DNA of 38,765 nt from Clostridia bacterium (GTDB lineage: Bacteria; Bacillota; Clostridia; Christensenellales; Borkfalkiaceae): contig JAFTQO010000008.1 in the NCBI GenBank assembly GCA_017462735.1, positions 1 through 38,765 on the forward strand. The letters are read 5' to 3'. The position numbers were made by a program, and so were the translations under genes. This document shows, in pieces, positions 2 to 35,849 of the stretch (position 1 is its first letter; every line of letters starts with the position of its first letter). The notes below the pieces were generated by a model that did not search any database, was not told the origin of the DNA, and saw only the letters and a list, made by a program, of their open reading frames with translations.

Positions 2-265
2 GAAGTATGGCTTCGTTTGTACGGCGCGACGGATAGTTTGCAGGTTAACGGATACAAGTTAAATGCAAACGGTACGGAAAAGGAAAGTGGCAATACGGCG
101 AACACGTACGCATACGATTCGGCGACAGGAGTCATCACCTTGCAAATGAACGTAACGGCGACGGAAAACGGACAATGGTTTGAAATAGCGACGGCGACTG
201 ACCAATCGAATGGCGGTGGGGTTTGGACGATAACCATCGACGACTTTATGGTTGCGAACGCGTAA
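2..265 (+). CDS. C-terminal end of a giant secreted modular protein (5' truncated by window)
   Basis: The frame is open to the window edge, so the true start lies upstream; the TTG at 17 is just an internal Leu codon. The visible 87 residues form the last part of a jelly-roll module. They include 'DSATGVITLQMNVTATENGQ' and end in 'WTITIDDFMVANA'. The same signature (TTGV...NQ.F.LTTVG...W.I.IDDF.V) recurs in the modules of the two large proteins downstream, most closely near residue 1100 of the next one ('FIVDDFKVANV'). It is therefore the third member of a tandem paralogous array. Unlike its neighbours it stops right after this module and lacks their C-terminal module. A carbohydrate-binding (CBM4/9-like) role is inferred from fold-like sequence pattern only. 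Confidence 0.8.
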   Translation, partial: EVWLRLYGATDSLQVNGYKLNANGTEKESGNTANTYAYDSATGVITLQMNVTATENGQWFEIATATDQSNGGGVWTITIDDFMVANA

Positions 266-282
266 CGTAAAAAAGCAACAAT

Positions 283-308
283 CGGGAAAGGGAAATTTCC
301 CTTTCCCG
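283..308 (+). terminator. Perfect 26-bp palindromic hairpin after the truncated gene
   Basis: The two 13-base arms, CGGGAAAGGGAAA and its exact reverse complement, meet with no spacer. The hairpin lies 17 bases after the stop codon and 37 bases before the small-ORF start. No U-tract follows (AGCAAAAAG), so it is a poor intrinsic terminator on the plus strand. It may be a 3'-end stabilising or processing element, or a partial attenuator within one long operon. Confidence 0.45.
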
Positions 309-345
309 AGCAAAAAGAAAATCTTATTTCAAGGAGGAAAATCCA

Positions 346-471
346 TTGAAAAATATTTATCAAAAACCTATTATCACTATTGAGTTCTTTGACGAAAAGG
401 ACATCATCACAGAATCGCCTTCCTCGTATGACGGAACGGGGTCTATTCCCGACGGCTGGTGGTATCTGTAA
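346..471 (+). CDS. 41-residue small protein A preceding giant secreted protein
   Basis: A TTG start at 346 sits 8 bases after a perfect AAGGAGG (331-337). The 41-residue product starts 'MKNIYQKPIITIEFFDEKDI' and ends 'PDGWWYL'. It has no signal peptide, membrane segment or cysteine. It aligns with the small ORF at 4401-4526, also 41 codons: Y-Q-(K/R)-P-(I/V)-(I/L)-x-I-x-F-(F/L)-(D/E)-x-K-D-I-(I/V)-(S/T)-x-S, and both have D-G-W at residues 36-38. The stop codon TAA is part of TAAGGAGG, the ribosome binding site of the giant gene 12 bases downstream, which suggests translational coupling. From memory, short proteins with a KPx(I/V)...D(I/V)(I/V) pattern occur beside surface proteins in gut Clostridia, but I know of no assigned function. 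Options are a peptide precursor, a chaperone or export partner, or a regulatory leader ORF. Confidence 0.8.
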   Translation: MKNIYQKPIITIEFFDEKDIITESPSSYDGTGSIPDGWWYL

Positions 472-483
472 GGAGGCGCAGAG

Positions 484-3400
484 ATGAAAAAGTTTAGCAT
501 TAAAAAACTTTTGACGGCAATTTTTGCAGGCGTCTGCTGTGCATGTACCGGTCTTTCGGTGGCGCTCTTAGACAAGGAGGTTGAAACGGTGTCTGCGGCA
601 ACGAGCGGAGAAGTCGAACTTTACCAACTTGCCCCCAACAAAGGTTGGTTGATGGAGTCTTACGTAATCAAAACTGCCAACAATAAGTTGATCGTTATCG
701 ACGGTGGCGCCGACGGTAGCGACGACGACAGCAACGGCGATGGAAATAGCCACGGCACGGCATTGACGGCGGAGGCGTATATGCCTGCGGCGCTTCGTGC
801 AATCGCTGGTGTTGGTGAAGGTGAGTATTTTGAGGTAGAGGCTTGGTTCGTATCCCACGGGCACAAGGACCATTTCAACGAACTCGGCAAGATGCTCAGC
901 AGTTATACCGCAAGTTCCAACTACAAAATCAACAACATCTATTTAGATTTCCCCGACTTCGGTGGCTCGTATGACGCTAACGGCGACTGGGATAGTTACG
1001 GCCCGCAATTCAAGGCGGGCTTGGATAACTATGCCGCCGTCAACGGTATAGCGACCAGCGGTAGTTATTACGACGATATCAACGGCGCGGTTATTAATGC
1101 GGAAAATATCGCTAAAGGCTTGGATATCACGGTAGACGGCGTGCGTTTTGAGATTTTGCAAACGTGGGCGGCTGACGAACATGATTTCAATAGTAATTCG
1201 ACGGTTATCCGTATGCACGTAGGCGATCAAAGCGTACTCTTCCTCAACGACTTAGGGGTGGGAGGCGGCAACCGCTTGACGTCCACTTATACGACGGAAG
1301 AACTTGAAAGCGATTACGTGCAAATGGGTCACCACGGTCAAACGGCGGTTACGCAAGCGCACTATACGCATATGGGCGCAACGCCTGAAAGCGACACGAA
1401 ATACTTGTGGTGCTCGCCTTTGTGGACGTTCAGCGATGCGACCAGTCACACGGTATACCAAAACTACGAATGGGTGAACGGCTCTTCGTATATGAACGGT
1501 ACGACCTTTGACCAAACGTTGGTAGACACGACGAGAAACAAAGTCGCCTGTCTTTACAGCGCATACCCTGCTACGCTTACGAGCGTTGCGGATTGGTCGT
1601 CCTGTGTCAGCGGTATGAAAGTTGCTTCGTTTGCTTATCAAGAAGTAGGCTTTGAGGTAATGGGCGCGTCCGTCCGTACGGCAAGCCCCGACGGTATCCG
1701 TTTCGTAGCGCAAGTCAACAGCGAAGCGCTTACCTCTTACGGTGCTGGCGCGAAATACGGCGTTATCCTCGTACCTGAGGTGGTAGATACGACTCGTCGT
1801 TTGACGGTTTCCTATGACGGCGCGAACTATACGACGAATAATACGAACGCTCTCGTTATCGAAGGGGGCGAACTTTGGAGTGCAGAACTTTGCGCGGCAA
1901 ACGGCGTGAAAGACGGATATTCCGCTTTCTCCAGCGCGTTGCTTGCACAGCAATCCACGGAGGAAGGTGCTGCGGCGGTAGAATTCCCCGCGGAATTCTA
2001 TAATACGCCTATTACGGCGGTAGGGTTTATTATTCCCGAAAGCGGCAACACGATTTACACGTCTAAAGTGACGCGTAGTATCGCGTACGTAGCGACGGTA
2101 GAAAGTTTGAAATCCACGTATGAAGAAAACGCGGTTGTGGAAAAAATCGTAGCGGGCGCAGACGTAGAATTGTCCGTTAACGGCGGTCAACTCCTTGACG
2201 ATAAATCAGCGATGTACGCACCTGTGCTCAAGATCGGCGGTATGGACGCGGCGGCTTCTGCGGCGGTGAACGTAACGTATACGTCGGACGACGAAAGCGT
2301 CATTAAAATCGTCGACAACAAAGTGACGGCGGTAGGCGACGGCATTGCAACGGTAACGGCGACGGTGTCGGTAGACGGTACGGCGACCCTTGTCAAAGAA
2401 GTCAGCGTAGAAGCATACGTCAGCAAGGTAACCTTTGACGGGACGACGTTGAAAGTGCAAGCAGGGGCAAACGCAGACGTATCCTTTGCCTTTACGTCCA
2501 GCGGCAACGCATACACGTTGAAAGACGGGGCGGGTACGGAACTTGATACGACGGCGTTCTCTTATGAAAATAACGAATTGACCTTGAAAGGCACCTATCT
2601 TTCTACCTTGGATGTGGGGTTGTATACGTATACCCTGTCGGTAGCAGATAGATATAACAGCACGTTTACCTTCTCGGTAGGCGTATACGGCGATGCGGAT
2701 GGCACTCACCTTGCCTTCCCTGCCTCTATCTACGGTGTCAACAACTTTGACAGCATACCCATGGCGGCTATTACCGAATATCTCGGCTCCTCTGCCGCAA
2801 GCGGCAAACCTTTGTACGTAGACGGTGCAGATGCGGCGGTAGTCGACGCAGCGGCGGGCTCTATTGACGGTCAGTCCTTGATGTTTAAGACTAAAGCGGC
2901 ACAGGTAGCAGCGGAATGGAACAAACTTGCCATACTTGATTTGGGCTTTGAAAAGGACGTCGTATATACCGTTTCCTTGAAGGCGAAGATTACGGCTCCT
3001 GCGACGGGTACGAAAGTATTTGCCTTGCGTTTCGACGATGTCACGGCAGCAAATTCTACCTGTGCGTTCAACGTGGTAGACGGTAGCGCGACGGGTTGGA
3101 GTAACGTAGGCAATGGCTCTACGGTATCCTTGGACAGCACGACGGGTGTGTGGACGATTAAAGCGGTGATTGCGGCTCCTACGGCGGGCGCAACCCTCAA
3201 CCTCACGACGGTAGGCGATGATGGCAACGGCGGCGAGTGGACGGTTGTCATCGACGACTTGTGTATCACGGTTAACGAAGATGAGACTCCCTTAATTGGC
3301 GTAGACTTTGAGAGTGCTAACGTCGGTTCGTATTCGGTGCTTGACAGTACGACGGGTTGTACGGCAGGCATGTATCCCGGTGAAACGTACGCTACCGGTC

Positions 3401-4317
3401 AAGTAGTGGACACGGACGTTATCAGCGGGACGAAGTCTTTGAAATTGACGACGACTGCGGCAGGTGAAACGGGCAACGTTAACGATATTTTCAAGAGTGA
3501 ATTCGGCATGAAAGCAGGTACGAGATACTTGATTTCTTTGAAGTTTAAGTTCTCGACGACGTTGACTTCTGGTAACGTGTATTTCCGTACGAATGACGGC
3601 GCGATTAACGCATTGAAGTTGGATCTTACCAGCGGTAGCACGTTGGCGTTCGGTTATGCGCAAGATAGCGCGACGACGTTGACGTACGATGAGACGACGG
3701 GCGTTTATACGGCGAATATCTACATGACGCCTTCGGCAGACAATCAAGTGTTTGCGCTTACGAAGGTAGGGGCGGCGGCTTGGACGTTTATCGTAGACGA
3801 TTTCAAAGTGGCCAACGTGACGTTTTCGGCAAAACATATTGCGTTGGATGCTAACGACTACGAGTTGGGCGCTACGTTAGCCAGCGTATTCCAAGCGGAA
3901 AACTCTGGCCCTAACTTGCACCTTGCCAGCGGTACGACGGACGGTGGCGTAGTTGATTGCGGTGACCTCGGCAATGCGTTTAGACTTGGCGCGAACGGTG
4001 TTGCTATTTGGTTTGATAAGTTTGCGGCAAATACGACGTATCGTTTCTCCATCCGTTTCTCGGTGGACGGGGATGCGGCAATTTCTTCCTTGCTCTTGAA
4101 ATGGATAAACGATGGAGGAATCGACGCTAACTGGATTAAAGACAATGCAGTCAGTGGTAATCAAACGACGGATACTTTACTCTATCAAGACGAGAAAGGC
4201 GTATGGACATGGACCTGCTATTTGACGAGTGGCGCGACTGACGGTGGGCAATTCGTGTTCTATGACGTAGGGAACCAAATCTTTAACGTTTACAGCATTG
4301 ATATTGCAGCGATTTAA
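484..4317 (+). CDS. Giant secreted metallo-beta-lactamase-fold hydrolase with carbohydrate-binding-like modules
   Basis: 1,277 residues. A Sec signal peptide (KK..KK then a hydrophobic core) has likely cleavage at VSA/A, residues 38/39. Residues about 45-330 form a ComEC/Rec2-like metallo-beta-lactamase domain: 'SHGHKDH' (H125, H127, D129, H130), 'LFLNDLG' with the bridging-type Asp near 256, and 'MGHHGQ' near 283. Residues about 390-545 hold the 'GASVRTASPDGIRFVAQ' domain shared with the next giant protein. A BIG2-like domain (about 560-640) and an X2/Ig-like module (about 645-738, 'LKGTYLSTLDVGLYTYTLSV') follow. Two jelly-roll modules end in 'VVIDDLCI' and 'FIVDDFKV', then comes a distinct C-terminal module (about 1118-1277). 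No LPXTG, dockerin or SLH anchor is visible. The substrate is unknown. The family includes extracellular nucleases, phosphodiesterases and teichoic-acid phosphorylcholine esterases. The start is fixed by TAAGGAGG at 469-476. Confidence 0.9.
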   Translation: MKKFSIKKLLTAIFAGVCCACTGLSVALLDKEVETVSAATSGEVELYQLAPNKGWLMESYVIKTANNKLIVIDGGADGSDDDSNGDGNSHGTALTAEAYMPAALRAIAGVGEGEYFEVEAWFVSHGHKDHFNELGKMLSSYTASSNYKINNIYLDFPDFGGSYDANGDWDSYGPQFKAGLDNYAAVNGIATSGSYYDDINGAVINAENIAKGLDITVDGVRFEILQTWAADEHDFNSNSTVIRMHVGDQSVLFLNDLGVGGGNRLTSTYTTEELESDYVQMGHHGQTAVTQAHYTHMGATPESDTKYLWCSPLWTFSDATSHTVYQNYEWVNGSSYMNGTTFDQTLVDTTRNKVACLYSAYPATLTSVADWSSCVSGMKVASFAYQEVGFEVMGASVRTASPDGIRFVAQVNSEALTSYGAGAKYGVILVPEVVDTTRRLTVSYDGANYTTNNTNALVIEGGELWSAELCAANGVKDGYSAFSSALLAQQSTEEGAAAVEFPAEFYNTPITAVGFIIPESGNTIYTSKVTRSIAYVATVESLKSTYEENAVVEKIVAGADVELSVNGGQLLDDKSAMYAPVLKIGGMDAAASAAVNVTYTSDDESVIKIVDNKVTAVGDGIATVTATVSVDGTATLVKEVSVEAYVSKVTFDGTTLKVQAGANADVSFAFTSSGNAYTLKDGAGTELDTTAFSYENNELTLKGTYLSTLDVGLYTYTLSVADRYNSTFTFSVGVYGDADGTHLAFPASIYGVNNFDSIPMAAITEYLGSSAASGKPLYVDGADAAVVDAAAGSIDGQSLMFKTKAAQVAAEWNKLAILDLGFEKDVVYTVSLKAKITAPATGTKVFALRFDDVTAANSTCAFNVVDGSATGWSNVGNGSTVSLDSTTGVWTIKAVIAAPTAGATLNLTTVGDDGNGGEWTVVIDDLCITVNEDETPLIGVDFESANVGSYSVLDSTTGCTAGMYPGETYATGQVVDTDVISGTKSLKLTTTAAGETGNVNDIFKSEFGMKAGTRYLISLKFKFSTTLTSGNVYFRTNDGAINALKLDLTSGSTLAFGYAQDSATTLTYDETTGVYTANIYMTPSADNQVFALTKVGAAAWTFIVDDFKVANVTFSAKHIALDANDYELGATLASVFQAENSGPNLHLASGTTDGGVVDCGDLGNAFRLGANGVAIWFDKFAANTTYRFSIRFSVDGDAAISSLLLKWINDGGIDANWIKDNAVSGNQTTDTLLYQDEKGVWTWTCYLTSGATDGGQFVFYDVGNQIFNVYSIDIAAI

Positions 4318-4328
4318 CAAAAAAAGTA

Positions 4329-4372
4329 GCCTGAAGGCGGCAAAAACCGCTTTCAGGCAATACTGCTTTTTT
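4329..4372 (+). terminator. Rho-independent terminator after the MBL-domain giant gene
   Basis: A 12-bp stem GCCTGAAGGCGG / CCGCTTTCAGGC (one G-U pair) has a CAAAAA loop and is followed by AATACTGCTTTTTT. It begins 12 bases after the stop codon. It would separate, at least in part, this gene from the next small-ORF/giant-gene pair, although no convincing promoter is visible between it and position 4401. Confidence 0.75.
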
Positions 4373-4400
4373 AGAAAAGAAAAAAATTAAGGCTAATATT

Positions 4401-4526
4401 ATGAAAAAGAAAACGTATCAAAGACCTGTGCTGGTCATTAGGTTTTTAGAAAACAAAGACATTGTCAGTTCGTCAACCGTAGACGACGAAAACTTCGGTT
4501 GGATTGACGGATGGTTGGAGGATTAA
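4401..4526 (+). CDS. 41-residue small protein B preceding second giant secreted protein
   Basis: An ATG start at 4401 has only a weak AAGG upstream. The 41-residue product starts 'MKKKTYQRPVLVIRFLENKD' and ends 'WIDGWLED'. It is homologous to the small ORF at 346-471 over the YQ(K/R)P...I.F...KDI core and the DGW tail, and the two are the same length. The serine/threonine run after the core (SSSTV) and the acidic-aromatic tail vary between them. As in the first copy, the TAA stop lies inside TAAGGAGG, which serves the giant gene starting 14 bases later. Too short to be caught by usual gene callers. The function is not recognised; the conserved position and length argue against a chance ORF. 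Confidence 0.8.
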   Translation: MKKKTYQRPVLVIRFLENKDIVSSSTVDDENFGWIDGWLED

Positions 4527-4540
4527 GGAGGGCTAGAGAG

Positions 4541-7500
4541 ATGAAAAAATTGAGTAAGATTAAAAAAGTGTTTCTCGGTCTTTTCAGCGCGTTGTTTATG
4601 GGCTGCATTGCGACGTCGGTCGCTTTGGTAACCCCTACGGCAAGTGCGGATACCGACTATACCATTACCGAACAAGACCCGAGCACCTATCAAGTACTTG
4701 GGATGTCGGTGCGTATCCAAAAGCCGGAAGGGCTTCGTTTCGTTGCGCAGATGAAGACGACGGAAAAGCAAACGTACGACTTAAAAGACGGTAGATACGG
4801 TATGTTGTTGATACCGACTAGTAAACTCGGTGACGCGAATATGGGAATTGAGCCCGTCTTTGACGCCAATGACAATTTGGTGGATTTCAAGACGGTTACT
4901 ACTACTGACGACGGGACCAGCGAAGAAAACCCTAACATTTTGCGTATTCAAACAAAAGTATGGATGGAAGAAAGTACCGCGCAAGCCAATGGGATTGATA
5001 CGACTAACTATTCTGCGTTCTCTTCCGTTTTGGCGAAAAAAGACAGTAGCGGGAATTATTTAGATTTCCCCGAGGATTACTATAATATGGCGTTTACGGC
5101 GCGTGCATACGTGGCGTATTTGGCAGACGACCCTACCGTGGACAACAACGGGGACAAAAACGTAGACTTGAACGACAAGTATATTATTGAGTACAGTAAA
5201 ACGCAAGTGACGAGAAGTTTGGGCTACGTTTCCTTCGTTTCCCTCGGCGCGGATAACTATTTGGATACTCGAGACCAGATATACGATAGATCGGGTGGGA
5301 CTAGTACCGTTACCGATGCAAATCCTATTAGCGGCAATCAATCTTTGAAACTCGAGACGTCCGATTCTGGTGCCGAGGTGAACTTCTGTTCTATGTTGGG
5401 GGTAAAATTCTTCCCGACGGCAGACGTTCGCTACTATGCGCAACTCAAACTCCGCGTAAACTCCATTACGGGGTTGGTGGACGGTGCGACCCCTCGTATT
5501 GCGGTCAGATTGCAAGACGAAACGGTTGATCCCGTGGTAGTTACCGAAGGGTTGCATTTGTATATGACGGCAGACGGTAAGGTGGACACTTCTAAAGTTG
5601 ACCAAGACGGGGCAGGCAATGATTTGCCCGCGGGTATCGTCGGCAACAGTTTTGCTCCTTCGGACAGCGATACGACGTATCTTTACGATGAAGAGACGAA
5701 CGTCATCACTATTCAGGCGTATTTTACGGCAGCAACGGCAAATCAAATTTTTTCCTTGACGACGGTTGGTGGCAACAAGGATGCAAACGGTCAATCGGTA
5801 GCAGGCAGCAGATGGAATATTACGATTGATGAATTTTCCATTAAGCAAGCAGGCAAAACGGGCAATCTCTTTGGACATGACTTTGAGGGGTTGGACGTTG
5901 GAAAACGCATCCAAGACGCCTATATGAATTTGGTGGATAGATCGGGGATTCAGCGGGTGTTAACGAGCGACCCTGCCGCGGATACCGACGGCGACGGATA
6001 CTTAGATGGTACGGCGCACGGTACGTTGACGGGCACTTTGACGGTTGAAAACCCCTATTGTGACTGCGGATTTGAAGGTTGCGACGGGATTGGTAACAAC
6101 GGCGCAGCGGGAACGTTGTACTATACGCCCACGTTTACTATCGCAGGGGTAGACGCCTTCACTTCCGATTACGTGCAAGTGACGTACGGTTGCTTAGAAG
6201 ATGAAAAAATGGTCTATTTCGAAGCGACCAACCGTGAGAAATTCCGCTTAGACGCGACGGCAGAGATGATGATGGCGGCAATAGGTGCGGTGGACGGCGA
6301 GATTACCCTTCAAGCATGGGCAACCGTCGGTAGAGACGCTGACGCGGCAGACGGGACGAAAGATCTTTGGTGGTCGGAGTTCTCCACGACGTGTACGATA
6401 GAAGTTGTCACGACAATGGCGACGTATACCCCGACCAACGCCGTACAAGCGGCGGGTGGTAGCGTCACCTTGCAATTCAACTCCAATAAGAGGCCGTTTA
6501 GATTGTATGCAGAAGACGGCAAAACGGTACTGTTGACGGTGGAAAAGGGCGCGTACGTCTCTCAAAACGGCATTTCGTACAACTCTGACGGCACGATTAC
6601 TTTGACAAACGAGTACCTTAGCACGTTGTCCGCAGGGTTACACCATATCACGGCGAAAGTTTGCGACGCGGCTCACTCTGAAATCAAAATGGGCTTTACT
6701 GTTTACGGGGACGAAAACGGTAAACATATCTCCTTCCCGTCGATTGTATCTAGCACGGATATGGACTGGTTTGCCGACAGTAGTTCCTTTGGGACGAACG
6801 CGCAAGGCGAATCTGTTTTACAACTCGTCAATGATACGACCAATACGACGTCTTGTGAGATTGTCGACGAGGGAAACGGCGCTATTGCAGGTAAGTCCTT
6901 AAAAGTCTCGACAACCTTATTAGAGGGTGCAAATACATCGTCTGTTTGGGAAGAAATCATAGAGTTGGACTACGGCTTTAAGTACGGCGTCACCTATGAG
7001 ATCGGCTTGAAGATGAAGTGGGAGATGCCTGACGCGGCGAAAGCCGTCAATGGCGGCAAAGGCGCGTCGATCGTTTGGGCGTTTGATGCCAACACCGCAG
7101 GCTTTGGTGTCAACACGGTTGAAAACAATAGTTGCTGGCATGCGGACAGGGGTTCTACTCCGTCCACCTATTCGACGGATACGACGACAGGGGTAACAAC
7201 TTTCCATATGATATTGACTCCCTATGCGCAAGACGACGAGTTGTTGAGTTTGATGATTGCAGGCGGTGATGCGACGCAAACGCGAGGGAATTGGGTCATC
7301 TATATCGACGATATTTCCATTATGGAATACGCAGTTTACAATACGACTAATCAATACTCGCAGACTTTCCCTAAGGATACGTATGCGGCAGGGACTGAGT
7401 TTACGATGGACGGCGGCAACTTGTTTACCGCTGGGGCTAACGGCACGATAGTAGCAGGTTCTACCGGTGGGTATGCGTTGCAATTGAAGACGGCAACGGA

Positions 7501-8617
7501 AACTAAGGATGGCGGTACTGTGGCTAGTAACGACGCAGAATGGAACCGTATGATGGCAAGCCGATTGACGACAAGCCAAACGGGTTCTGGCGTGGTAGCA
7601 GGACAACGTTATTTGATTCACTTGAAGTTTACTTATCAAGTACCTGACTTCTGGGATCCCGATACAACGGGTGTCATCGCCATTCGTTTCTTAGAAGAAG
7701 TGAACGGTAAGACGGTTTCGGCTGTGGACGGGTTGTTTATTTCGGTTTCGAAACAATCCAATACGCTTAACAGAAAATCGGATGACGATACCTTCTATAT
7801 GTACGATAAACACAGCGGCGTTATTTCCGCTTACGTATATATGACGGCAACCTCGTCCAATCAGCAACTTAACCTGACGACGGTCAGCAACAAGAATAAG
7901 ATGCAAGATACCGACGGCGACGACGTAGTAGACTACGGTCAATGGACGATTACGGTGGACGACTTGTCCGTGGTAAAATTGCGCGAAGACCCGTATATGC
8001 ATTTCAATGGCAACAATATTACGATGACGCCTGATGCAACGGGCACGAGCGACACGGTTACCGTAAACGGCAATACGGTGGAAAATACCGCGCAGAACAT
8101 TTTTGCTGGTCAACCTGTACACTTTACGTATACGGAAGGTAGTCCTACCACCTCTATTTCGGACGGAGGTCTCTATTACTCTACGTATTTGCAGTCCAAT
8201 TTCTGGTCGGTCACGGGTGCCAACGAAACAGACGGTGCAGGTGCTACGTCCATGGCGAATGCGTGGTTGATTTGGGTGGATAACGTCCCTGCCAACACGA
8301 AGTATCGCATTACGTTGAGACTTAGCGTAGCGGCAAGTACGCACAATGCTACGTCGGATAAGATTGAAAACCTCTTCTTCCATACGGCAGGCGCAAACAA
8401 AGGTATTTACATCAAGAATAACGAATTGGTGAATAGTGCCGATCACGCTACCGATTATAGTTTGAGTATGTATGAGGTTAGCACCGACAATTACCTGTAT
8501 ACTTGGTCGTTTGTCTTCACGACGGGCGATACGGTAGAACAATGGGTACTTTGGGACTATGCATACCAGAAGTTCGGTATTTTCGAAATTAGCGTAGTGC
8601 CTATTGGGGCTGCTTAA
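4541..8617 (+). CDS. Giant secreted modular protein with repeated carbohydrate-binding-like jelly rolls
   Basis: 1,358 residues. Start ATG 4541 is chosen because AAGGAGG lies at 4525-4531 and the product then opens with a standard signal peptide (KKLSKIKK, hydrophobic core, ASA/D cleavage near 36/37). The in-frame ATG at 4511 lies within the small ORF. Modules in order: the 'GMSVRIQKPEGLRFVAQ' domain shared with the MBL protein (about 50-245); a jelly roll (about 250-440); a Cys-containing stretch with CDCGFEGCDG (about 507); an Ig-like region (about 515-625); an X2-like module (about 629-720, 'LTNEYLSTLSAGLHHITAKV'); two more jelly rolls ending 'IYIDDISI' and 'TVDDLSV'; and the C-terminal module (about 1150-1358). 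No catalytic domain or wall anchor is recognised. It is probably a glycan-binding surface or matrix protein; this is inference. Confidence 0.88.
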   Translation: MKKLSKIKKVFLGLFSALFMGCIATSVALVTPTASADTDYTITEQDPSTYQVLGMSVRIQKPEGLRFVAQMKTTEKQTYDLKDGRYGMLLIPTSKLGDANMGIEPVFDANDNLVDFKTVTTTDDGTSEENPNILRIQTKVWMEESTAQANGIDTTNYSAFSSVLAKKDSSGNYLDFPEDYYNMAFTARAYVAYLADDPTVDNNGDKNVDLNDKYIIEYSKTQVTRSLGYVSFVSLGADNYLDTRDQIYDRSGGTSTVTDANPISGNQSLKLETSDSGAEVNFCSMLGVKFFPTADVRYYAQLKLRVNSITGLVDGATPRIAVRLQDETVDPVVVTEGLHLYMTADGKVDTSKVDQDGAGNDLPAGIVGNSFAPSDSDTTYLYDEETNVITIQAYFTAATANQIFSLTTVGGNKDANGQSVAGSRWNITIDEFSIKQAGKTGNLFGHDFEGLDVGKRIQDAYMNLVDRSGIQRVLTSDPAADTDGDGYLDGTAHGTLTGTLTVENPYCDCGFEGCDGIGNNGAAGTLYYTPTFTIAGVDAFTSDYVQVTYGCLEDEKMVYFEATNREKFRLDATAEMMMAAIGAVDGEITLQAWATVGRDADAADGTKDLWWSEFSTTCTIEVVTTMATYTPTNAVQAAGGSVTLQFNSNKRPFRLYAEDGKTVLLTVEKGAYVSQNGISYNSDGTITLTNEYLSTLSAGLHHITAKVCDAAHSEIKMGFTVYGDENGKHISFPSIVSSTDMDWFADSSSFGTNAQGESVLQLVNDTTNTTSCEIVDEGNGAIAGKSLKVSTTLLEGANTSSVWEEIIELDYGFKYGVTYEIGLKMKWEMPDAAKAVNGGKGASIVWAFDANTAGFGVNTVENNSCWHADRGSTPSTYSTDTTTGVTTFHMILTPYAQDDELLSLMIAGGDATQTRGNWVIYIDDISIMEYAVYNTTNQYSQTFPKDTYAAGTEFTMDGGNLFTAGANGTIVAGSTGGYALQLKTATETKDGGTVASNDAEWNRMMASRLTTSQTGSGVVAGQRYLIHLKFTYQVPDFWDPDTTGVIAIRFLEEVNGKTVSAVDGLFISVSKQSNTLNRKSDDDTFYMYDKHSGVISAYVYMTATSSNQQLNLTTVSNKNKMQDTDGDDVVDYGQWTITVDDLSVVKLREDPYMHFNGNNITMTPDATGTSDTVTVNGNTVENTAQNIFAGQPVHFTYTEGSPTTSISDGGLYYSTYLQSNFWSVTGANETDGAGATSMANAWLIWVDNVPANTKYRITLRLSVAASTHNATSDKIENLFFHTAGANKGIYIKNNELVNSADHATDYSLSMYEVSTDNYLYTWSFVFTTGDTVEQWVLWDYAYQKFGIFEISVVPIGAA

Positions 8618-31578: not shown

Positions 31579-31629
31579 ATGCTTGCGAAAAGGCGGCGGT
31601 TATGGCAACAATCTACAGAGCGGGGATAG
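31579..31629 (+). CDS. Possible 16-codon leader ORF overlapping the giant gene start
   Basis: The ATG at 31579 has the better ribosome site (AAAGG, 8 bases upstream). It encodes a basic peptide beginning MLAKRRRLWQQ, in a different frame, and terminates 25 bases inside the large CDS. It could couple or dampen translation of the large gene, whose own site is only AGGCGGCGG. It may be fortuitous. Confidence 0.3.
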   Translation: MLAKRRRLWQQSTERG

Positions 31630-34600
31630 ACGTAGGATCGACCACGGTAAAATTGGTAGTATTGGATGAAAAGGGCGAGGTGTTGTACGGGCAGTACCGT
31701 AGACATTACGCCGAGATTCAACCTACGCTTGCCGATTTGCTTACGGAGGCCAAAGAAAAATTGGGCTTGGACGGCTTGCGCGTCAAGATTACGGGCAGCG
31801 GGTCTATCAATTTAGGTAAGGCGCTTTCCATTGGATTTATGCAAGAGGTCGTTGCGGTAGCGACGGCGGTAGAGACGCTTGCGCCGCAGACGGACGTCGC
31901 CATAGAACTTGGCGGGGAAGACGCAAAAATTATCTATTTTAAAGGCGGCTTGGAAGAACGCATGAACGGCGTTTGTGCAGGCGGGACAGGCTCTTTTATC
32001 GACCAAATGGCGGCGCTGTTGCAGACGGATGCGACGGGACTGAATAGGGCGGCGGAAGACTACAAACAAATTTATCCCATTGCGGCGCGTTGCGGCGTTT
32101 TTGCCAAGACGGATATTCAACCGCTTATCAACGAAGGGGCGACGAAAGCGGACCTTGCGGCGTCTATCTTCCAAGCGGTGGTCAACCAAACGATTTCGGG
32201 GCTTGCTTGCGGCAAACCTATCCGTGGCAAAGTCGCTTTCCTCGGCGGTCCGTTGTATTTCTTGCCAGAACTGAAAAAAGCCTTTATCCGTACGTTACGT
32301 TTAAAAGAGGACGAAGTGATAGGCTTTGCCTATCCCCACCTTTTGGCGGCGACGGGTAGTGCGCTTGGCGCGGAAAACGAAGAGGTTAAGGACGTAGATG
32401 CCTTGATTGCCGCGTTGCGTAATAAAATCTCTATGGATTTTGAAATCAAACGTCTTGCGCCCTTGTTTGAAAACGAGGAAGAGTACGCAAAGTTTGAAGA
32501 AAGACACGGCAAAGCCGTCGTCAAGAAACAGGACATTTCGACGTACGAGGGGAACTGTTACTTAGGGATCGACGCGGGCTCGACGACGACCAAACTTGCG
32601 CTGATCGGCGACGAGGGGCAGTTGTTGTTCTCCTATTATACGGGTAATTTAGGCAATCCTGTCCGCGCGGCAATCGGCGCGATGGAAGCCCTTTGGAAAG
32701 TGATGCCCGAAAACGCACGGATCGCGTACAGTTGTTCGACGGGTTACGGCGAGCAACTTTTGAAAGCGGCGTTCAACCTCGACGAAGGGGAGGTAGAGAC
32801 GGTCGCCCACCAAACGGCGGCGTCTTTCTTTGCGCCCGACGTCGATTGCGTCCTCGATATCGGCGGGCAAGATATGAAATGTATCCGCCTCAAAAACGGC
32901 TCGGTAGATACCATTATGCTCAACGAGGCGTGTTCTTCGGGGTGCGGTTCGTTTATCGAAAATTTTGCCACCTCGCTCGGTTACACGGCGGCAGGGTTTG
33001 CCAAAGAAGCGTTGTACGCGAAGAACCCCGTTGACCTCGGCACCCGTTGCACGGTGTTTATGAACTCCAACGTCAAGCAAGCGCAAAAGGAAGGGGCGTC
33101 CGTTGCCGACATCTCGGCAGGGCTTGCCTATTCCGTCATCAAAAACGCGCTGTATAAAGTCATCAAACTCACCGACGGACAAAAACTCGGCAAAAAAATC
33201 GTCGCGCAAGGGGGCACTTTTTACAACAAAGCGGTGCTTTGCGCGTTGGAGAAAATTGCGGGGGTGGAAGTCGTTTGTCCCGACATTTCGGGGATTATGG
33301 GCGCCTTTGGCGCGGCGCTTCTTGCCAAGCAAAGAGGGGCTTGTAAAAACACGGGGATTCTTTCTTTTAGGGATATTTCTTCGCTTACTTATCAAACGAC
33401 GGGGGTGCGTTGCGGCAGGTGCATCAACCGCTGTATGCTGACCGTCAATACCTTCTCGGGCGGCAGGAAGTACATAAGCGGCAACCGCTGCGAAAGAGGG
33501 CTCGGCGGAGAAAAGACGAGCGCGGAAGTACCCAACCTTGTCGAATACAAAAGACAGCGTATTTTCGGCTACGAACCGCTTGCGGTGGAATCGGCGCCCC
33601 GTGGTGTCATCGGCATCCCGCGCGTGCTGAATATGTACGAAAATTATCCCTTCTGGGCGACCTTTTTCAAGGGGCTTGGTTTCTCCGTGTTATTGTCGCC
33701 TGCATCCAATCGAAAAATTTACGAACTTGGGATGGAATCTATCCCTTCTGAATCGGAGTGCTATCCTGCAAAACTCGCCCACGGTCACGTCCAATGGCTG
33801 ATTGAAAGCGGGGTAAAGACGATTTTTCACCCCTGCGTCTTTTATGAAAGACAGGAGACGAAATCGGCGCAAAACCACTTCAACTGTCCCATCGTCGTGT
33901 CCTATCCCGAAAACCTCAAAAACAACGTGGAAGGGCTCAAAGAACACGGGGTGAAATACGTCCGTCCGTTTATGGCATTTACCGATGAAAAGACGACGTG
34001 TAAGAGATTGCAACGTCTTTGCAAAGAGGAGTGGGGTATCCCTGCCGCTGAAGTAAAAAAGGCAGTTAAGGCGGCGTGGAAAGAACAGTTGCAAGCCAAA
34101 GCGGATATCGTGGAGGAAGGCAAGCGCGCCTTGCAATGGGTGCGCGACAACGACGCCCTCGGCATCGTCCTTTGCGGAAGGCCCTATCATATTGACAACG
34201 AAATCAATCACGGCATCCCCGAGATGATTACTTCCTATCGGTTAGCGGTGCTTACCGAGGACAGTTTGTCTATCGATTTTGCGCCGACGAGACCCGTCCG
34301 CGTCAACGACCAATGGGTGTATCATTCCCGTTTGTATACGGCGGCGGAATTCGTCTTGAAACACGAGGAGTTGGAACTCGTGCAACTCAATTCCTTCGGG
34401 TGTGGGTTGGACGCCGTTACCACCGACCAAGTGAACGAAATTTTGGAGGGAGGAAACAAGTTATATACCGTCTTAAAAATTGACGAAGTCAACAACTTGG
34501 GGGCGGCGCGTATCCGTCTTAGAAGTTTGCTTGCCGCGATGAAGACGAGACGGGAAGCGCAGGTGCAGACGGTCAAGGAAATGAAGCCTTACCGCCGAGC

Positions 34601-35849
34601 GGAATTTACGAAGAGGATGAAAGACGAGGGGTATACGATTATCGCCCCGCAAATGAGTCCTATCCATTTCGATTTCGTAGAACCCGTTTTCAAGCGTTAC
34701 GGTTACAACGTCGTCGTCCTTCCCAACGACGATAAAAACGCTATCGATACGGGGTTGAAATTCGTCAATAACGACGCCTGCTATCCCTCTATTACCGCCG
34801 TGGGGCAGATTATGGAAGCGGTGACTAGCGGCAGATACGATACGGACAAACTCGCGATTATTATGTCGCAGACGGGCGGCTGTTGCCGTGCAAGCAACTA
34901 TGTTGCTTTCATCCGCCGCGCGTTGGACAGCGTCGGGCTTTCGCATATCCCCGTCATCTCGTTGAACGCCAACGGGATGGAAAAGAACGAGGGGTTCAAA
35001 CTGCCTTTGTCCCTTATTTTGAAAGCGGGACGAGCAATCGTCTACGGCGATTTGTTTATGCGCTGTCTCTATAAAGTGCGCCCGTATGAACTCATCAAGG
35101 GCTCGGCAAACGATTTGTATGCGGCGCTCAAAGAGGAATGCGTCCACTCGCTGACGCAAAGGCATAGTCCTTATAAGTTCAAAAAACAATGCAAAAAAAT
35201 CGTCGACGCCTTCGATAGATTGCCTATCGACGAAGGTTTGAAAAAACCGCGCGTGGGCGTCGTCGGCGAAATCTTAGTCAAATATATGCCCCTTGCCAAC
35301 AACCACCTCGTTGATTTGTTGGAAAGAGAGGGCGCGGAGGCAGTCGTCCCCGATTTGATGGATTTCTTGAACTATTGCGTATACAATATGAACTATAAGC
35401 ACGAGTTCTTAGGAAAACCGTACTCGCAAAAGGTGCTGGCAAAGTTAGGGGTATGGGCAATCCGTCAAATACGCAAGCCCGCCTTAAAGGCGCTGAAAAA
35501 GAGCAAACGTTTCTCGCCGCCCGTGGCTATCGAAAAGGTGGCGGAGTTCGCAAAACCCTTCCTCTCCGTCGGTAATCAGTACGGCGAAGGCTGGTTCTTG
35601 ACGGGGGAAATGGTGGAACTTATCCACGAAGGCGCCCCCAATATCGTGTGCGTCCAGCCCTTTGCTTGTCTGCCCAATCACGTAGTGGGGAAAGGGGTAA
35701 TAAAGGCGCTCAAAAACGTCTATCCGCAGGCAAATATTGCGGCGGTGGACTACGACCCCGGTGCCAGCGAAGTCAATCAGTTAAACCGTATTAAACTGTT
35801 GCTGGCGGCGGCGGAAAAGAATATGAAACAAGGAGAAAAGCATGATTAA
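31602..35849 (+). CDS. Fused acyl-CoA dehydratase activase/reductase-like protein, probable plasmalogen synthase
   Basis: 1,415 residues. It has two tandem BcrAD/BadFG (HgdC-type) ASKHA ATPase domains. The first starts 'AGIDVGSTTVKLVVL', with 'ELGGEDAKI' and 'CAGGTGSFIDQMA'. The second starts near residue 321, 'LGIDAGSTTTKLALI', with 'DIGGQDMKCI' and 'NEACSSGCGSFIENF'. A Cys cluster CGRCINRC lies near 604-611. A DUF2229 domain follows from about 665 ('GIPRVLNMYENYPFW', 'SESECYPAKLAHGH'). The C-terminal half is 2-hydroxyglutaryl-CoA dehydratase-like ('LCGRPYHIDNEINHG', 'FGCGLDAVTTDQ', 'SQTGGCCRASNY'). Such activases use a 4Fe-4S cluster and ATP to drive low-potential electron transfer. In Clostridium perfringens the homologous plsA-plsR operon is needed to make plasmalogens (vinyl-ether lipids); one-gene fusions occur in other anaerobes. 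It has its own promoter and overlaps the next gene by 8 bases. Confidence 0.88.
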   Translation: MATIYRAGIDVGSTTVKLVVLDEKGEVLYGQYRRHYAEIQPTLADLLTEAKEKLGLDGLRVKITGSGSINLGKALSIGFMQEVVAVATAVETLAPQTDVAIELGGEDAKIIYFKGGLEERMNGVCAGGTGSFIDQMAALLQTDATGLNRAAEDYKQIYPIAARCGVFAKTDIQPLINEGATKADLAASIFQAVVNQTISGLACGKPIRGKVAFLGGPLYFLPELKKAFIRTLRLKEDEVIGFAYPHLLAATGSALGAENEEVKDVDALIAALRNKISMDFEIKRLAPLFENEEEYAKFEERHGKAVVKKQDISTYEGNCYLGIDAGSTTTKLALIGDEGQLLFSYYTGNLGNPVRAAIGAMEALWKVMPENARIAYSCSTGYGEQLLKAAFNLDEGEVETVAHQTAASFFAPDVDCVLDIGGQDMKCIRLKNGSVDTIMLNEACSSGCGSFIENFATSLGYTAAGFAKEALYAKNPVDLGTRCTVFMNSNVKQAQKEGASVADISAGLAYSVIKNALYKVIKLTDGQKLGKKIVAQGGTFYNKAVLCALEKIAGVEVVCPDISGIMGAFGAALLAKQRGACKNTGILSFRDISSLTYQTTGVRCGRCINRCMLTVNTFSGGRKYISGNRCERGLGGEKTSAEVPNLVEYKRQRIFGYEPLAVESAPRGVIGIPRVLNMYENYPFWATFFKGLGFSVLLSPASNRKIYELGMESIPSESECYPAKLAHGHVQWLIESGVKTIFHPCVFYERQETKSAQNHFNCPIVVSYPENLKNNVEGLKEHGVKYVRPFMAFTDEKTTCKRLQRLCKEEWGIPAAEVKKAVKAAWKEQLQAKADIVEEGKRALQWVRDNDALGIVLCGRPYHIDNEINHGIPEMITSYRLAVLTEDSLSIDFAPTRPVRVNDQWVYHSRLYTAAEFVLKHEELELVQLNSFGCGLDAVTTDQVNEILEGGNKLYTVLKIDEVNNLGAARIRLRSLLAAMKTRREAQVQTVKEMKPYRRAEFTKRMKDEGYTIIAPQMSPIHFDFVEPVFKRYGYNVVVLPNDDKNAIDTGLKFVNNDACYPSITAVGQIMEAVTSGRYDTDKLAIIMSQTGGCCRASNYVAFIRRALDSVGLSHIPVISLNANGMEKNEGFKLPLSLILKAGRAIVYGDLFMRCLYKVRPYELIKGSANDLYAALKEECVHSLTQRHSPYKFKKQCKKIVDAFDRLPIDEGLKKPRVGVVGEILVKYMPLANNHLVDLLEREGAEAVVPDLMDFLNYCVYNMNYKHEFLGKPYSQKVLAKLGVWAIRQIRKPALKALKKSKRFSPPVAIEKVAEFAKPFLSVGNQYGEGWFLTGEMVELIHEGAPNIVCVQPFACLPNHVVGKGVIKALKNVYPQANIAAVDYDPGASEVNQLNRIKLLLAAAEKNMKQGEKHD

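Follow-up and report, generated by a model that had tools for sequence, protein, structure and literature searches.

A family of small clostridial genes beside genes for large secreted proteins, probably encoding LPP-type peptide precursors

Described systems and how the locus compares

Linear polyphosphorylated peptides (LPPs) were reported in May 2026 from the lpp cluster of Paenibacillus alginolyticus, where LppK, LppB, LppS, LppD and LppN make them from precursors with a YxxP leader (PMC13381572). In that paper, the printed leader motif is YxxPxVLxHQxIxFETxxS, phosphate is carried on Ser3, cleavage is RRE-dependent, and LppS is a SipW-like peptidase with the catalytic residues S29, H68 and D93; the biological roles of LPPs are stated there as unknown. 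Phosphorylated lasso peptides (paeninodin, Bsf; PMC10368454) likewise have a YxxP-type leader and a nucleotidyltransferase, and their HprK-like kinase acts, aided by an RRE, on a Ser of the core.

We compared these systems with a 38,765-nt stretch of clostridial DNA (the window) and with genomes of the same taxonomic family and class. The likeness to LPPs lies in an HprK-like kinase, a discrete PqqD-type RRE and a SipW-like signal peptidase, joined at many loci by an ABC exporter and an NTP transferase, and in precursors with a conserved YxxP N-terminus and a variable C-terminus. In contrast to the lpp cluster, the precursors of the window's family, a group of gut bacteria, are dispersed and lie beside secreted-protein genes, and their hosts are Clostridia, a word stem absent from the main text of PMC13381572. 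The clostridial leader agrees with the printed motif only in YxxP and the later Ser, and the distance from the leader aromatic to that Ser is 19 in 80/95 clostridial peptides versus 18 in the motif as printed, the only form compared. Phosphorylated lasso systems differ as well: the lasso peptidase B2 (PF13471) scored above cut-off in none of 30 carrier genomes (one match fell below it), and a cyclase was not noticed in the inspected loci. SynChlorMet cassettes include radical SAM genes; near the kinase loci such genes were noticed at two only (L082, L092), where they are single and activase-like. What the cassette shares with our loci is a pair of HprK-related and PqqD-related proteins (ScmC/ScmD, NCBIfam), to which the matches are far below cut-off. 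Judged by sequence, the peptides of the window are best read as LPP-type, a clostridial branch, and not as proven LPPs.

Small genes and their secreted partners

We read the start of the window as a tandem of units, each a small gene followed by a giant gene (Table 1), because the contig start truncates a third giant and a strong hairpin precedes each small gene. The intervals holding these hairpins fold at -25.6 kcal/mol (262-345, z -4.6) and -27.8 kcal/mol (4318-4400, z -5.2), with 0/200 shuffles equally good in either case. By a terminator scan, the first hairpin is terminator-like on the minus strand only. The second, which is absent from the terminators called by a consensus scan, suggests that giant 1 and small gene 2 are separate units.

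Table 1. Features at the start of the window, in order of position
Feature	Position	Strand	Basis or remark
Truncated giant, C-terminal end (frame 2)	2..265	+	cut by contig start; translation ends ..WTITIDDFMVANA*, resembling giant 1 repeats
Strong hairpin, truncated giant / small gene 1 interval	282..309		folding of 262-345
Small gene 1 ribosome site AAGGAGG	331..337	+	sequence
Small gene 1, 41 aa, TTG start, LPP-type precursor (probable)	346..471	+	family profile
TAAGGAGG, small gene 1 stop + giant 1 ribosome site	469..476	+	sequence
Giant 1, 1277 aa, signal peptide (by eye)	484..4317	+	metallo-beta-lactamase/ComEC-like region, then GASVR domain
Giant 1 GASVR..GIRF domain	1651..2118	+	alignment, genome search
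Hairpin, giant 1 / small gene 2 interval	4320..4372	+	folding of 4318-4400
Small gene 2, 41 aa, ATG start, LPP-type precursor (probable)	4401..4526	+	family profile
TAAGGAGG, small gene 2 stop + giant 2 ribosome site	4524..4531	+	sequence
Giant 2, 1358 aa, signal peptide (by eye), N-terminal GASVR domain	4541..8617	+	sequence, profile
Giant 2 GASVR..GLRF domain	4673..5245	+	alignment, genome search

The sequence-only reading had described two homologous 41-codon frames, each ending within the ribosome site of a giant secreted protein, and this description holds: the small proteins are identical at 15 of 37 aligned residues (BLASTP E 3e-9), both have D-G-W at residues 36-38, and the giants begin 12 and 14 nt past the small-gene stops. 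Both giants have N-termini that look by eye like signal peptides. Small protein 1 combines a YxxP N-terminus and DIITES with an acidic tail ending in DGWWYL; small protein 2 has YQRPVL, DIVSSS and an acidic tail containing DGW. Searched against the window's genome, small protein 2 recovered small protein 1 (E 2.4e-4) and a third copy (E 0.003), a homology beyond chance. The giants had been said to differ in their N-terminal domains. They are not unrelated, as they have in common a GASVR..GLRF domain (E 1.8e-40 and 5.1e-41 with a profile built partly from them) with a mutual identity of 36%; the metallo-beta-lactamase/ComEC-like region of giant 1 is a match below curated cut-offs. Elsewhere in the window, 31602-35849 encodes a 1415-aa BcrA/D-type activase with DUF2229, whose match to a 2-hydroxyglutaryl-CoA dehydratase part is below cut-off.

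With a 3-row profile of the small proteins, seven copies were detected in the genome bin to which the window belongs (0.92 Mb, 69% complete), and a Sec-type gene comes after every one of them. The small gene therefore does not track the position in an array, as had been proposed, and instead adjoins secreted-protein genes across the whole genome. A first search of the window's family (E up to 1) returned many chance matches in long frames; with one of the 36 loci removed (L034, an 888-aa frame), the resulting 35-row profile matched in 87/201 genomes of that family (E 0.05), while up to 23 matches occurred in one genome of the class-wide sample. Against this profile, which includes both, small genes 1 and 2 scored E 1.5e-21 and 1.7e-15.

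Ninety-five peptides were read, the 35 profile members and 60 further matches. Their pattern is a YxxP-like N-terminus, then D-[IV]-[IV]-T-x-S, then a variable, acidic tail free of cysteine. The wider form [DN]-[IVF]-[IVLMC]-x-x-S occurs in 95/95, with T two residues before the Ser in 67; the leader aromatic is Y in 90 and F or W in 5, and P stands at +3 from it in 54; the pair from the window reads YQ[KR]P. The mean tail length is 19, D, G, N and E are the commonest residues, and acidic minus basic residues come to zero or more in every peptide. No tail among the 95 contains Cys, the residue on which lanthipeptides and sactipeptides depend. The protein sequence appears to be under purifying selection, as dN was below dS in 49/49 computable related pairs; these pairs are not independent and were pre-filtered to 60-99% protein identity, and 13 of the 62 pairs gave no usable dS (nine undefined, four above 3).

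Pfam, NCBIfam and PHROGs gave no name for the small proteins. DUF5972, tried as an identity, reached E 0.095, far under its cut-off, and no mention of it was found in the open-licence papers searched. The earlier statement that no named family exists thus stands for Pfam and NCBIfam, whereas the machinery described below matches the published LPP family (PMC13381572). In two genomes, G054 and G091, paralogous small genes (L112, L114-L118) have near-identical tails (..YAHVKESWLDSEWLN) beside differing giants; the tail is therefore conserved within a lineage. The leader was also seen on longer proteins, of 117 aa in Kandleria vitulina (L248 3483-3836) and 102 aa in Blautia schinkii (L246 6444-6752).

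Within the window's family, 58/60 members adjoin a secreted-protein gene, the partner being downstream in 47 and upstream in 11. These 60 were taken from the next 63 best profile matches beyond the profile's own members, ranked by E-value, with three left out because their DNA was already among the sequences read. They are not independent: L149 and L152 have the same peptide and partner, and L136 is identical to a profile member. An automatic test found a Sec-like gene at most 130 nt downstream in 47/60; by eye, L139 was a false call, its real partner lying 5' (L178), and L146 had been missed. For ten further members the gene immediately 5' encodes a GASVR-domain protein, the domain being weak in L183. 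At L171 and L175 the partner's start is off the contig and its signal peptide not visible. The two exceptions are L156, an unclear case in that it lies 3' of a frame which the contig end cuts, and L121, which has no secreted neighbour.

Of 22 members from six other families of the class, 17 adjoin a secreted-protein gene, 16 of them lying directly 3' of the partner; partners at this level include proteins of 2344, 2077, 1424 and 1221 aa, and for 5/22 no secreted neighbour was found. The 22 comprise 20 hand-picked plus-strand stretches and two extra matches inside them. The automatic test called eleven of the 17, with the partner 5' in ten and 3' in L271. Five more were recognised after upstream DNA was added, and the last, L280 at 3062, on inspection by eye, its start having been called too early. 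As a control, the automatic test alone was applied to 394 genes and placed a Sec-like gene next to 24% of them, counting both sides.

The GASVR domain occurs in 74/201 genomes of the window's family, often on the partner. Pfam gave it no name in the tested giants, a sequence search found no relative among solved structures, and a profile search did not find it in the 20 class-level loci. Outside the window's family the partners differ (a pectinesterase with a GDSL lipase, Ig-like proteins). Metallo-beta-lactamase-type proteins are also among the partners, and the feature common to the partners is secretion. Among 36 complete downstream partners, one has an LPxTG-like motif and four have a C-terminal membrane segment. 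The partners at L123, L145, L156 and L169 end in a stretch containing Gly, Ser and Cys, a membrane segment and a basic end, resembling an unnamed sorting signal. At L126, L128, L153 and L161 the small gene is followed by short Ser/Glu-rich lipoproteins and not by giants.

The kinase, RRE and peptidase operon

At two loci (L040, L041) a small gene lies 79 and 116 nt ahead of an HprK-like kinase gene, which in L041 is followed by a PqqD-type RRE and a signal-peptidase-like protein. The operon as generally found holds the HprK-like kinase, the PqqD-type RRE (PF05402, E 1.9e-13) and a SipW-like peptidase, often with an ABC exporter and NTP_transf_5. The latter two adjoin the kinase in some, not all, inspected loci; for example, L265 has ABC_membrane+ABC_tran and NTP_transf_5, and L092 has NTP_transf_5. 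PqqD was found in 40/46 scanned loci of the window's family, some of which cover one operon twice, and a natural kinase-RRE fusion occurs at L237. Six loci of one genus (L067, L071, L074, L078, L081, L082) lack a PqqD gene between the kinase and the peptidase that directly follows it; PqqD is present at other loci of that genus. Tiny lipoproteins with Trp/Tyr-rich tails and no YxxP leader adjoin the operon at L065 (2211-2357, ending ..DGWTGNY), L080 (2237-2377, ..ETWSDFY) and L084 (2215-2388, ..EGWTDNY).

Several residues can be set against the printed descriptions. The RRE fits the Tyr-binding type: an Asn aligns to LppB N33 in 10/10 sequences and an Asp to D70 in 7/10. The kinase motif H-G-G-G-K-S is invariant in 11/11 with the spacing printed for BsfK, and the invariant Asp lies 19 residues past the Ser here versus 16-17 in BsfK. 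Ser and His of the peptidase are invariant in 13/13 and lie 38 apart, versus 39 in LppS as printed; its invariant Asp stands 15 after the His, whereas the catalytic Asp of LppS stands 25 after, leaving the third catalytic residue unmatched.

Small gene and kinase go together across genomes. The kinase occurs in 81/201 genomes of the window's family, including 75 of the 87 small-gene carriers: 75 genomes have both, 12 the small gene only, 6 the kinase only and 108 neither. Since relatedness inflates the resulting P value (1e-34), the comparison was repeated on 291 class-wide genomes. In that sample, 32/35 carriers have a full-length kinase, a subset (44/84) selected after the table had been seen, and outside the window's family 31 genomes have both, 2 the small gene only, 12 the kinase only and 242 neither. 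Small gene and kinase occur together in 15 other families of the sample, whose number of families was put at 76, the highest label observed; counted by family, the kinase is present in 15/17 carrier families and there are two kinase-only families.

Among the best 80 of 583 kinase loci, located via a kinase alignment, 15 have a small-family member, which in 12 lies on the same strand at most 1.5 kb upstream of the kinase. Hosts of these 80 are Clostridia, Lachnospiraceae, Ruminococcus, Blautia schinkii, Kandleria vitulina, Streptococcus merionis (where the member is on the opposite strand) and bins labelled Synergistaceae. In the window's family, by comparison, a precursor lies within about 1.5 kb in 2/30 kinase loci (each about 3.7 kb), and one of 16 longer loci has a family member, 13 kb off. 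The precursors of this family are dispersed away from the operon. Open-licence papers yielded no report of dispersed precursors beside secreted proteins.

Kinase, peptidase and PqqD were not found above cut-off in the window's own bin. A purB-like gene adjoins the operon in 13/18 same-genus loci inspected, and it was not found in four kinase-less same-genus carriers (the window's bin, G147, G162, G120). We read the operon as missing from the window's bin and not as shown to be absent, because this neighbour is missing too and incompleteness predicts 3.4 such absences among 25. G080 (94% complete) has the purB-like gene and neither kinase, peptidase nor small gene, and G011, an apparent kinase-less carrier, has the peptidase. 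Three near-complete carriers in which the kinase was not found count against explaining such absences by incompleteness. One is G091, a 93% complete and 6% contaminated genome in which four or more small genes score strongly; the peptidase was not found there either. In the class sample, the kinase was not found in G457 (97% complete, four small matches, best E 1.8e-5) or in the near-complete G266 (one small match, E 0.003).

What the small genes probably encode

We propose, with a probability of roughly 0.75, that the small genes encode LPP-type ribosomal peptide precursors, encoded apart from the modifying operon, with every precursor tied to a single large protein exported by Sec. Comparison of genome sequences establishes the family membership, the joint occurrence with an LppK/LppB/LppS-like operon, which often has LppD- and LppN-like genes as well, and the adjacency to secreted-protein genes. 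The likeness to a leader-core precursor, raised by the sequence-only reading, has gained support from the YxxP-type N-terminus, the variable tail and the co-occurring RRE, kinase and peptidase, sometimes at the same locus.

An unlikely alternative is that LPP-type peptides are exported phosphopeptides that act as signals to the population and, once sensed, regulate expression of the secreted protein encoded next to them, of which they are not partners. The co-occurrence with the operon speaks for signals as much as for partners, and a small exported peptide with its gene next to the one it regulates is a classic pheromone layout, but no receptor or regulator gene was evident by eye beside the inspected pairs, and the near-same tails of paralogs within G054 and within G091 argue against a locus-specific signal.

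That the small protein stays unprocessed in the cytosol and helps the giant to fold or to be exported is still less probable. It would account for the tight linkage to Sec-exported proteins; it would not predict co-occurrence with RRE, kinase and peptidase in 15 other families, nor small genes at the modifying operon itself. In addition, the GASVR giants of three inspected kinase-negative genomes (G013, G055, G129) manage without a small gene. Homologous giants lacking the small frame, which had been named as counting against a linked system, thus do exist, in genomes where their occurrence fits a precursor made by the operon.

We consider it very improbable that the small gene is an upstream ORF coupling ribosomes to the giant gene for translation control. 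Each stop in the window does overlap the giant's ribosome site, but the partner can be 3' or 5' of the small gene, which argues against such control: many relatives (the 11/60 and 16/22 cases above) lie 3' of the secreted gene, and purifying selection acts at the protein level. A true lasso precursor can be set aside with similar assurance, since B2 was above cut-off in none of the 30 carrier genomes tested, even though the YxxP leader, the T two before the Ser, PqqD, the HprK-like kinase and the nucleotidyltransferase are also found in lasso clusters.

If the small genes encode LPP-type precursors, their products are probably modified peptides carrying phosphate. By analogy with the lpp system (PMC13381572), the PqqD-type RRE would bind the Y(xxP) leader, the RRE-guided kinase would phosphorylate the invariant Ser of D-[IV]-[IV]-T-x-S, the SipW-like peptidase would cut the leader off near that Ser, NTP_transf_5 may attach a further group, and the ABC exporter would release an acidic peptide of about 20 residues. 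Cleavage is predicted before the Thr if the Ser is counted as core residue 3. SipW-like peptidases prefer small residues at the cleavage site, a preference that would alternatively place the cut after the Thr.

The mature peptide may then act outside the cell with its secreted partner, as a ligand, linker or assembly factor; this tie to the partner's function we infer solely from the pairing of the genes. On this proposal, many secreted proteins would keep a precursor gene of their own because the mature peptide acts with them. More tentative, and in our view somewhat doubtful, is the extension that one LPP machine supplies a whole set of different phosphopeptides, with each peptide reserved for the adjoining secreted giant as a ligand, linker or surface-attachment adduct. 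If true, the peptides would serve proteins that mostly lack known anchors. Searching for precursors only near the enzyme genes would overlook almost every member in the window's family, and the location of these precursors beside genes for large extracellular proteins hints, as a concrete pointer, at an LPP-type role at the cell surface.
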